This document shows positions 17,593-19,946 of a DNA stretch of 64,000 nt, piece by piece. A program made the translations under genes and the position numbers. A model generated the notes under the pieces. It was not told the DNA's origin, ran no database searches, and saw only the letters and a list, made by a program, of their open reading frames with translations. This stretch comes from Octadecabacter antarcticus 307 (lineage in GTDB: Bacteria > Pseudomonadota > Alphaproteobacteria > Rhodobacterales > Rhodobacteraceae): assembly GCF_000155675.2 (NCBI RefSeq), contig NC_020911.1:1168501-1232500 (forward strand), read 5' to 3'. The stretch's first letter is position 1; the number at the start of each line of letters is the position of its first letter.

Positions 17593-18045
17593 ATGACACT
17601 AATTGATCCCATTAACGCGCGGATATTGCGTGAATTACGCAAAGACGGGCGGATCAGCAACCTCGCGCTGGCCGACAAAATCGGCCTGTCGCCGTCGGCC
17701 TGTCTGCGACGAGTGCAAGACCTTGAACGGCGCGGCGTCATCACAGGCTACCGTGCCCGCCTTGATCCCACGCAAACCGGACAGGACTATGTGGTTTATG
17801 TCGCTGTCGGGCTGGCCGAACATTCAAAAGCGGCACAGCTTGGGTTTGAACGCGCGATGGACCGATTTGATGAGGTCGCTGAATGCCACAACATTGCCGG
17901 TGCATTCGAATATCTGCTGCGGGTCGAAACGGCAAATTTGGCGTCGTATAAAACATTTCACACCGACCGCCTCGGGACTGTGCCGCATGTGCGATCCATC
18001 ACCAGCTACATGGTCATGGGATCCCCGAAAGATATGCGCGCCTGA
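17593..18045 (+). CDS. Lrp/AsnC-family transcriptional regulator
   Basis: DNA-binding regulator of 150 residues. The N-terminal helix-turn-helix reads ILRELRKDGRISNLALADKI with recognition segment LSPSACLRRVQDLERRGVI; the C-terminal ligand-binding RAM domain includes AFEYLLRVETANLASYKTF. It is divergent from the LysE-family exporter with 73 bases between starts, so it most likely controls the exporter in response to an amino acid. The 3' end lies close to the terminator of the CcsR-like array, which runs toward it from the other strand. Confidence 0.92.
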   Translation: MTLIDPINARILRELRKDGRISNLALADKIGLSPSACLRRVQDLERRGVITGYRARLDPTQTGQDYVVYVAVGLAEHSKAAQLGFERAMDRFDEVAECHNIAGAFEYLLRVETANLASYKTFHTDRLGTVPHVRSITSYMVMGSPKDMRA

Positions 18046-18060
18046 CATACCTCCAGACAC

Positions 18061-18099
18061 AAAAAAAGCGACGAGACCCGGGAGGAGGTAGGTCTCGTC
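18061..18099 (-). terminator. Last CcsR-like hairpin doubling as intrinsic terminator
   Basis: On the minus strand the 9-bp stem GACGAGACC/GGTCTCGTC closes a 12-base loop containing CCTCCTCCC and is followed, after GC, by seven T (plus-strand A run 18061-18067). It should end the DUF1127-array transcript 16 bases before the 3' end of the convergent Lrp gene. Confidence 0.85.
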
Positions 18100-18108
18100 A
18101 CTTTCATG

Positions 18109-18192
18109 TGTGGGCCACATCTCTGGGAGGAGAAAGCAGGCCCGGTCTTATGTGGGCCACATCTCTGGGAGGAGAAAGCGGGCCCGGTCTTA
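18109..18192 (-). repeat. 42-bp tandem duplication within the CcsR-like array
   Basis: Units 18109-18150 and 18151-18192 are identical at 41 of 42 positions; the single difference is an A/G change on the 3' side of the stem (plus-strand GCAGGCCC versus GCGGGCCC). Each unit contains one GGGCC-based hairpin with a CTCCTCCC loop. Confidence 0.95.
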
Positions 18193-18337
18193 GTCGCTAA
18201 TCAAGTGCGGCGGTGTCAGGGAGGAGGAAAGACACCGCCGCGTCTTGATCGCAGCGCCCTTCCCTCGGGAGGAGGAGAGTGGGCGCGATCACGGGGCATC
18301 TTCCGGGAGGAAGAGAAGGCCCCGATTCCGGAATTTC

Positions 18338-18556
18338 TTATGCTTTGACGTAGGCTGCCTCGCGGGCAACAGCTTGTAATGTATGCTGGTTTAAGCCCAG
18401 ATCGTTCAATTCACGCTTGGTCAGTGATTCCAATTCGCGCAAGGTTTCGCGATATGTCTGGTACTGACCAAAGCGGATTGCCAACGTGTTGCGCAGATTG
18501 GCAAAGTGCGAGACGGCTGATGTGCCAAAGATGCGCGTGTCAGATGTGTGTGCCAT
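18338..18556 (-). CDS. DUF1127 protein, CcaF1-like small RNA-binding protein
   Basis: Small basic protein of 72 residues (74 if translation starts at the ATG at 18562). The ATG at 18556 is preferred because AAAGAGA lies at a suitable distance upstream. The C-terminal half is a DUF1127 domain: YRETLRELESLTKRELNDLG followed by LNQHTLQAVAREAAY. In Rhodobacter sphaeroides the DUF1127 gene upstream of CcsR1-4 (RSP_6037, CcaF1) encodes an RNA-binding factor affecting maturation of those sRNAs; here the same order, gene then CCTCCTCCC hairpins, supports an equivalent role. Expression is probably stress-controlled. Confidence 0.85.
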   Translation of the reverse strand: MAHTSDTRIFGTSAVSHFANLRNTLAIRFGQYQTYRETLRELESLTKRELNDLGLNQHTLQAVAREAAYVKA

Positions 18557-18631
18557 GTTCATTCTCTTTCAAGGTTTGACCCTGATTATGGGTCTGCAAA
18601 TCCAGCGCCGTATTGCGCCTTCGAGAACCAT

Positions 18632-18659
18632 AAATAGGGAATTGCTGCACCTGCACAAT
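18632..18659 (-). promoter_or_regulatory. Candidate RpoH-type promoter of the DUF1127/CcsR-like operon
   Basis: Minus-strand ATTGTGC (18653-18659) and CCCTATTT (18632-18639) are 13 bases apart, resembling the heat-shock sigma pattern CTTGAAA with CCCCATNT. Transcription would begin near 18625, leaving a 5' leader of about 65-70 bases. R. sphaeroides CcsR expression depends on RpoHI/RpoHII, which makes the match plausible but it is not strong. Confidence 0.35.
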
Positions 18660-18845
18660 CCCCCGCCGCATCAATGCTGCTATGCAGAATGTGCATGGTT
18701 AACGACTTGAAATTGTTTGGGTTAGCGCGATCAAGGGTTTTGACGCGGGGTAACTCTGCAAAATGCCCAAAACATCGGCGCTGTTGTCTTAACGATAGGC
18801 GGTCTAAGAACGCGGCGATAATGGTGACGAAAAGGCAGTTGGACC

Positions 18846-19946
18846 ATGGCACTTACAAACGAGACGATTTTGGCAGCGCTAAAGACGATCGGTCTGGCCG
18901 ACGGCGGCGATCTGGTGTCGCGCGATATGATTCGCGCGCTCAGCATTGCCGACGACAAGGTGCGCTTTGTCATCGAAGCCCCAGATGCGGCGATGGCCAG
19001 CCAGATGGAACCGATCCGTCAAGCCGCCGAAATGATTGTCGCGAAAATGGATGGCGTGGCCTCGGTGTCTGTGGTGCTGACAGCGCACAGTCCAAACAGC
19101 GGCCCATCCAAGCAGCCGCCACCGCCCGCAGACAAGGCACCGCCAAACCTGACCATTGGTCGCCACCCAACCCCGCAAGCGGGCCCCGAAGGGGTGCCCG
19201 GTGTCGCCCGTATTGTGGCTATTGGCTCCGGTAAGGGTGGCGTTGGTAAATCAACGGTCTCAAGCAACCTTGCGGTGGCACTGGCCAAACAAGGTCGCCG
19301 TGTCGGTCTGCTCGATGCTGATATCTATGGCCCTAGCCAGCCGCGAATGATGGGCGTGAACCAGCGGCCCGCAAGCCCGGACGGCAAAACTATTATTCCG
19401 CTGCGAGCCCACGGTGTAACAATGATGTCGATTGGCCTGATGACCGACCCGGGCAAGGCCATTGTCTGGCGTGGCCCGATGCTTATGGGCGCGTTGCAGC
19501 AGATGTTGACGCAGGTCGAATGGGGTGAACTGGATGTTTTGTTGGTGGATCTGCCCCCCGGTACGGGCGACGTGCAACTGACGCTGTGCCAGAAAACTCA
19601 CCTGACCGGGGCGATTGTTGTGTCCACCCCGCAGGACGTGGCGCTCATTGATGCGCGCAAGGCGATTGATATGTTCAACACGCTCAAGACGCCGATCCTC
19701 GGGTTGGTTGAAAACATGTCCACATATATATGTCCGCAATGCGGCCACGAGGCGCATCTGTTCGGTCACGGCGGCGTTAAGAAAGAGGCTGAAACCATCG
19801 GTGCCCCGTTCCTCTGTTCACTGCCGATTGATCTGGACACGCGGTTGGCAGGCGATACTGGCACGCCGATTGCGGCGGGTGATGGGCCAATAGCGGACGC
19901 CTATGCGACCCTCGCCAAGCGGTTGATCGATGGCGGCTTGGGCTAA
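18846..19946 (+). CDS. apbC: Mrp/ApbC-type iron-sulfur cluster carrier ATPase
   Basis: Cytoplasmic P-loop NTPase of 366 residues that carries and delivers Fe-S clusters. An N-terminal MIP18-like (DUF59) domain covers about residues 1-80, a proline-rich linker (PPPPADKAPP) follows, and the NTPase domain has the deviant Walker A GSGKGGVGKST near residue 130. The cluster-binding CxxC pair is in CPQCGHEAHLFGHGG. The catalytic region DLPPGTGDVQLT is typical. It starts about 290 bases from the divergent DUF1127 gene and is followed 4 bases later by the GNAT gene, suggesting co-transcription. Confidence 0.93.
   Translation: MALTNETILAALKTIGLADGGDLVSRDMIRALSIADDKVRFVIEAPDAAMASQMEPIRQAAEMIVAKMDGVASVSVVLTAHSPNSGPSKQPPPPADKAPPNLTIGRHPTPQAGPEGVPGVARIVAIGSGKGGVGKSTVSSNLAVALAKQGRRVGLLDADIYGPSQPRMMGVNQRPASPDGKTIIPLRAHGVTMMSIGLMTDPGKAIVWRGPMLMGALQQMLTQVEWGELDVLLVDLPPGTGDVQLTLCQKTHLTGAIVVSTPQDVALIDARKAIDMFNTLKTPILGLVENMSTYICPQCGHEAHLFGHGGVKKEAETIGAPFLCSLPIDLDTRLAGDTGTPIAAGDGPIADAYATLAKRLIDGGLG

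Follow-up and report, generated by a model that had tools for sequence, protein, structure and literature searches.

RNAs of the CcsR type are known stress RNAs in which the number of hairpins varies. In the portions of the literature drawn on here, RNAs of two, three, or four hairpins with variable stems and an anti-SD loop are grouped as one family in which the module number varies (PMC3927594), and “cuckoo” RNAs are defined by 2 to 4 hairpins in a 2015 model (as cited in PMC4504443). In the CIN1 group, hairpin RNAs are paired with a DUF1127 gene, and processing by CcaF1/RNase E is described (PMC10253847, PMC8625941, PMC7866481). The operon of Rhodobacter sphaeroides is described as RpoHI/RpoHII driven, with CcaF1 as an RNA-binding protein taking part in CcsR maturation (PMC10253847). 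In NfeR1, a three-hairpin relative, redundant loops are shown to silence specific mRNAs (ntrB) by covering the ribosome-binding site (PMC10746234). With regard to carbon storage, the passages available give CTGCNNNGCAG as the PhaR site of R. sphaeroides (PMC12542648) and report that PhaR (AniA) of Sinorhizobium meliloti represses the small RNA MmgR (PMC12542648, PMC8401924).

Here, we describe an array of this known CcsR/ar14 (“cuckoo,” CIN1) kind in the window, i.e., the whole stretch of 64,000 nucleotides analyzed. The preliminary description had proposed a CcsR-like identity and a covariance-model search as the way to check it. Run with Rfam, this search finds both CcsR1 (RF02791; E value, 1.8e-8; 40.9 bits against a gathering cut-off of 65.3) and ar14 (RF02344; E value, 5.8e-7; 45.1 bits against 58.8), in agreement with that identity, but both scores lie below the cut-off, and at gathering cut-offs the array gives no match.

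Six hairpin modules behind a DUF1127 gene

The array follows a small-protein gene of the DUF1127 type (positions 18338 to 18562, minus strand; 74 codons; PF06568 E value, 5.1e-7), which is CcaF1-like and has relatives in other genomes; its start is probably the second ATG, at 18556 (MAHTSD...), shared with most relatives. The first TCCTCCC begins 26 nucleotides past the stop codon, which places a DUF1127 gene directly upstream, as in CIN1. All six modules lie on the minus strand: module 1 (18293 to 18323) with the loop CTTCCTCCC at 18305 to 18313, module 2 (18247 to 18290) with CCTCCTCCC at 18267 to 18275, module 3 (18199 to 18250) with CCTCCTCCC at 18219 to 18227, modules 4 (18154 to 18185) and 5 (18112 to 18143) with TCTCCTCCC at 18167 to 18175 and 18125 to 18133, and module 6 (18061 to 18101) with CCTCCTCCC at 18080 to 18088. 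The apex motif can be written (C/T)TCCTCCC, and the six motif hairpins behind the DUF1127 gene are as first described, three being exact CCTCCTCCC (modules 2, 3, and 6) and three differing by one change (modules 1, 4, and 5), so that every hairpin carries CCUCCUCCC or a near form of it, as in CcsR/CIN1/cuckoo RNAs. The GATC of module 3 overlaps the end of module 2. The locus is bordered on the array side by an Lrp/AsnC-type gene (17593 to 18045, plus strand) and on the other by an Mrp/NUBPL-type ATPase gene (18846 to 19946, plus strand).

Counted over the whole window with up to one mismatch, the nine-letter motif occurs 11 times against a shuffle mean of 9.26, which is not above chance. The nonrandom signal is the clustering of six motifs within 234 bp on one strand. 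Genome-wide, 17 pairs of TCCTCCC spaced by 25 to 55 are observed, 15 of them inside DUF1127 arrays, versus none for a reversed-pattern control. The last hairpin had been taken to double as the terminator; it is indeed terminator shaped and runs into T7, but it is missing from the output of a consensus terminator scan, its predicted loop of 10 being above the limit of 8 set there.

Folded as a whole, the stretch forms six hairpins with every motif at or across an apex. When modules 1, 2, 4, and 5 are folded singly, base pairs take up two or three letters of the seven-letter TCCTCCC, and the loop is therefore not fully open in these four. The stem of module 3 is kept across the genus with compensatory changes: in an alignment of 13 genus sequences (one of which, G006, is shorter in the loop), 97.4% of cells are paired and 5 of 18 pairs have changed on both sides. 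None of 500 shuffles reached this covariation, and sliding the partners abolishes it. The number of pair types in this alignment did not exceed that of the shuffles, being reached in 481 of 500. Across 590 modules from 96 arrays (79 from the family and 17 from the genus), the motif sits at the hairpin apex in 99.7% and is on average 98% unpaired. When modules of the same array trade their right arms, the stem score in this set falls on average from 9.4 to 4.7. For the window's own modules the scores are 7, 5, 11, 5, 5, and 14 versus 8, 2, 10, 5, 8, and 3 after the exchange, a contrast that is weak or absent for some of them. Stem variation with retained pairing, as in CcsR/CIN1/cuckoo RNAs, is thus observed both in the 13 module 3 sequences and in the 590 modules, and the expectation that relatives would keep the loop while their stems vary holds. 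Judged by these alignments and folds, the six predicted hairpins are real RNA structure. What needs amending in the original picture of unrelated stems around a conserved loop is the first half: the loop is conserved and stems vary, but modules 4 and 5 are a tandem copy, and relatives within the genus keep the stem of module 3.

Six modules is an ordinary array size. Within the genus, arrays hold 3 to 7 exact-motif modules (17 genomes), to which inexact ones add one or two in some cases by eye. In a wider family sample, which we take to be Rhodobacteraceae, at least three exact modules are found in 88 of 198 genomes, and the 79 deduplicated arrays, drawn from the 71 array-bearing genomes for which loci were obtained, range from 3 to 26 modules; the suggestion that module number depends on the organism is borne out by this range. 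The 2-to-4-hairpin range, which six modules exceed, is accordingly a limit of the 2015 cuckoo model rather than of biology. Among named records the three-module pattern returns at least 120 stretches, with 12 modules in Paracoccus kondratievae and 10 in Falsirhodobacter sp.; the titles of the 80 records listed carry alphaproteobacterial names, apart from a few reading only “bacterium” or “Pseudomonadota.” In viral sequences, the same pattern, searched without a control, returns at least 120 stretches, with a single match in 79 of the 80 listed.

Tandem duplication is visible within the array. Modules 4 and 5 form a 42-bp tandem copy with 97% matches and a flank identity of 94%, and the relatives G002 and G008 have a single module where the window has both; by this comparison, module 5 is a recent tandem copy of module 4. 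In the 26-hairpin array (G182), a 140-bp unit of three hairpins is present in 6.5 tandem copies.

Four more arrays, each a DUF1127 gene with four hairpins, are present in the genome (C2, about 1086739, 1955601, 1992363, and 3698846), the last with one hairpin carrying CTCTTCCC. Three of these paralogues share about 1.3 to 1.4 kb at 93 to 94% identity, and the fourth shares approximately 0.7 kb at 86%; the paralogous arrays represent a dispersed, possibly mobile segment. The shared 1.3 to 1.4 kb takes in part of an adjoining divergent open reading frame (ORF) that reads as S24/UmuD-like, and ORFs that read as transposase-like lie near one paralogous array.

A candidate link to polyhydroxybutyrate control

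PhaR is a repressor that leaves the DNA once polyhydroxybutyrate (PHB) granules form. With moderate confidence, we favor the reading that the array is an anti-SD array silencing chosen mRNAs, that it is probably repressed by PhaR in this family, and that, for most of the relatives compared, the phaR mRNA is itself a likely target. The DUF1127 gene and the six hairpins would be cotranscribed, the 3′ part of the transcript would be cut into small, stable hairpin RNAs, and, by base pairing at GGGAGG/GGAGG ribosome-binding sites, their loops would block the translation of chosen mRNAs, with the dose set by module number. The operon being probably under PhaR repression, release of PhaR from DNA upon granule formation would mean that the RNAs are made during carbon storage. 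This reading builds on what can be read from the DNA, namely the array, its structure and covariation, the conservation of the promoter box, the phaP hairpins, and the complementarity at phaR, from which we infer transcription, processing, PhaR binding, target silencing, and dose. Precedents for it are the repression of MmgR by PhaR (AniA) and the silencing of ntrB by NfeR1 loops.

A more ambitious version, which appears possible but rather doubtful, is a PHB-responsive double-negative loop. Here, PhaR would repress both the array operon and phaP, the phaP 3′ end would supply the same hairpins, and the released RNAs would cover the phaR GGGAGG and shut PhaR off, so that carbon storage would switch in a committed way; array length, from 3 to 26 hairpins and changed by tandem duplication, would tune the strength.

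Turning to the promoter, a PhaR-type box, TTCTGCATAGCAGCA, lies at 18675 to 18689 on the minus strand, with one mismatch to TGCTGCNNNGCAGCA. It contains the published R. sphaeroides site CTGCNNNGCAG, present as CTGCATAGCAG within these positions, as would be expected of a PhaR regulon member. A second conserved element, TTGTGCAGGTGCAGCA (18643 to 18658, minus strand), starts 31 bp after the start of the first and overlaps a possible -35, TTGTGC, which is followed after 16 nucleotides by a possible -10, TATTTA (18631 to 18636, minus strand; by eye); a sigma-70 scan of the promoter gave no site. The genome encodes PhaR (PF07879 E value, 2.6e-27; TIGR01848 above cut-off). With at most one mismatch, TGCTGCNNNGCAGCA is found in 51 of the 65 family array promoters (those of the 79 deduplicated arrays that gave a usable upstream region), compared to 0.02 for shuffles and 1 of 440 other 300-bp stretches from the same loci. 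For 43 of the 60 family promoters with at most two mismatches, the start of the second element lies 30 to 31 bp past that of the first box. Conservation is looser in the genus, where only 8 of 17 array promoters have the box with at most one mismatch and six more have it with two; of the exceptions, G003 has three mismatches, G006 has lost the box, and G007 is masked there. Among named records labeled as family, the box is present at 14 of 16 arrays. In 60 other named records, mostly of the Rhizobiales type, it lies within 700 bp upstream in 11, which exceeds a background of 12 in 680 chunks but is far below the family share. The group labels were set from record titles, and two of them read only “bacterium” or “Pseudomonadota.”

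Two such boxes stand in the promoter of phaP in this genome, and one in that of phaR. With up to one mismatch the box fits 62 sites, many of which are repeats of one word that probably sits in insertion sequences, and of the 15 listed sites whose surroundings were inspected, several lie inside or beside genes without a known PHB link. Also among the sites listed are one before a 3-hydroxybutyrate dehydrogenase gene (TIGR01963) and those before seven DUF1127 genes, namely that of the window, those of three array paralogues, and those at C2:2024424, 1099194, and 2036394. The site at C2:2024424 is an exact box before a fifth DUF1127 copy (C2:2024143) that has no TCCTCCC array behind it. At C2:1099194 and C2:2036394, the genes are paired and DUF1127-like, with the PhaR-type box approximately 53 bp before the first ATG and without TCCTCCC hairpins.

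A rival reading, on balance unlikely, is that an ordinary CcsR/cuckoo array is driven by a stress sigma factor alone, that the box serves an unrelated regulator or is part of the promoter architecture, and that the hairpins behind phaP use the same loop independently. It would accord with the RpoHI/RpoHII drive described for the R. sphaeroides operon in the part of the source available (PMC10253847), and TTGTGC-N16-TATTTA, as picked by eye, could be a sigma-factor site; against it, the same palindrome stands before phaP, phaR, and the 3-hydroxybutyrate dehydrogenase gene and matches the published PhaR site. The distribution of PhaR itself bears on both sides. A PhaR profile match is found in 29 of 30 genomes searched, G167 being the exception, and the comparison with the box covers 27 of the 30 (G106 has no array in the family survey, and the array loci of G042 and G071 were not included). 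The box is within one mismatch in 19 of the 26 PhaR-bearing genomes with an array, and the second element is present in 24, whereas G167, the sole genome without a PhaR match, lacks both elements (four mismatches to the box), which speaks against a sigma factor acting alone. In its favor, the box is poor in seven of the 26, with four mismatches in G060, three in G034, G057, and G084, and two in G094, G132, and G170. In G060, the first box is as poor as that of G167 despite PhaR, with the second element kept, and in G084 the second element is absent despite PhaR, as in G167.

The hairpins behind phaP bear on the favored reading of a PhaR-repressed silencing array. Two TCCTCCC pairs in the genome lie outside arrays, at C2:65098 and C2:1586984, and the latter falls between phaP and phaR as two hairpins in the 3′ region of the phasin gene (C2, about 1586965 to 1587046); Rfam ar14 matches this pair with an E value of 0.0029, below gathering. 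Counting this genome, 10 of 19 in the genus have the pair, always upstream of phaR, a number that is not unbiased because the 10 loci were selected by a match to the pair pattern itself, the remaining nine genomes lying outside the comparison. Among 29 family genomes whose loci were found through PhaR and not through the motif, a TCCTCCC hairpin stands behind the ORF upstream of phaR in 17, all of them among the 22 genomes whose upstream ORF is phasin-like (simple word test), and the reversed-motif control finds 4 of 29. The hairpin begins 20 to 35 nucleotides after the phasin-like stop codon in 13 of the 17, as the first module behind DUF1127 often does.

Complementarity to the loop points to phaR as a candidate target. 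GGGAGG, which matches the loop with one G more than the 16S tail pairs with, is present in the ribosome site of phaR at 30 of 39 loci, compared to 0 of 35 for phaP in the same loci and 12 of 494 for other ORFs (12 of 67 among those with a strong SD). When only GGAGG-bearing sites are considered, it occurs at 30 of 35 phaR sites versus 12 of 28 for other ORFs. Start codons were picked by best pairing to the 16S tail, for which we assumed the usual sequence, and Fisher values for the phaR site are not independent evidence because the loci are related. This genome itself has TGGAGGG at phaR, where the duplex is weaker (-9.5 versus a median of -12.6 kcal/mol), and pairing of the loop to the ribosome sites of the 45 ORFs in the window gave no clear target.

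This concentration at one gene makes it improbable that the array is a general sponge, its many loop copies titrating ribosome sites or a protein that binds RNA (Hfq or the DUF1127 product) instead of silencing specific mRNAs. The existence of a 26-copy array would suit such a role, as would the RNA binding of R. sphaeroides CcaF1 and its part in CcsR maturation, as given in the passages available (PMC10253847). Long complementarity is, however, concentrated at phaR, absent at phaP, and rare elsewhere, and the available account of NfeR1 has its redundant loops act on specific mRNAs (PMC10746234), so the multicopy competitor or sponge put forward in the preliminary description is not the best reading. 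That the hairpins serve only to stabilize or terminate the DUF1127 mRNA is very improbable: the last one does run into a T tract, but T5 runs are found behind 48 of 96 last modules and behind only 3 of 494 interior ones, and the loop sequence is kept while stems change with compensation; for mere stability, the loop would not have to be fixed.

Against the silencing array under PhaR repression we count the RpoHI/RpoHII drive in R. sphaeroides, the TGGAGGG at this genome's own phaR, the Rfam scores below gathering, the retention of the box within one mismatch at no more than 8 of the 17 promoters in the genus, its poor state in 7 of 26 PhaR-bearing genomes, the reliance on loss of PhaR in one genome, and the partly paired motif in four of the six module folds. 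If the reading is true, the PhaR box, the phaP hairpins, and the phaR site would place CcsR-type RNAs inside the carbon-storage control circuit of this large family, and this circuit would give a direct test of the effect of array length.

Comparison with described systems

Conservation of the PhaR-type box, the paralogous arrays, the phaP hairpins, and the complementarity at the phaR site go beyond the preliminary description. Among the matches listed, no paper ties PhaR to CcsR, CcaF1, or DUF1127, a weak absence given that subscription papers were mostly outside the coverage. In the passages seen of the respective sources, MmgR (ar8) of S. meliloti resembles the window array as a regulatory RNA with a PhaR (AniA) link, itself affecting phasins (PMC8401924, PMC12542648). 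Unlike the array, MmgR is a 77-nucleotide trans-encoded RNA, and those passages do not describe it as arranged in tandem downstream of a DUF1127 gene or a phasin gene (PMC8401924).

The “cuckoo” RNAs of Rhizobiales (ar14/NfeR1/SmelA075/SmelA099; RF02344) share with the array, as far as the excerpts go, adjacent hairpins with an identical anti-SD loop and variable stems. They differ in having 2 to 4 hairpins, whereas the DUF1127-linked arrays have six here and as many as 26 in one relative; and NfeR1 is described as controlled by LsrB and NtrC (PMC10746234). From R. sphaeroides CcsR1-4/CIN1 (RF02791), the array differs in its six modules versus four RNAs and its Rfam score below gathering, and a PhaR box goes unmentioned for CcsR1-4 in the passages behind this comparison. 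In the same passages, the two share their overall plan: a DUF1127 gene, followed by hairpins with the CCUCCUCCC motif and a 3′ Rho-independent terminator.
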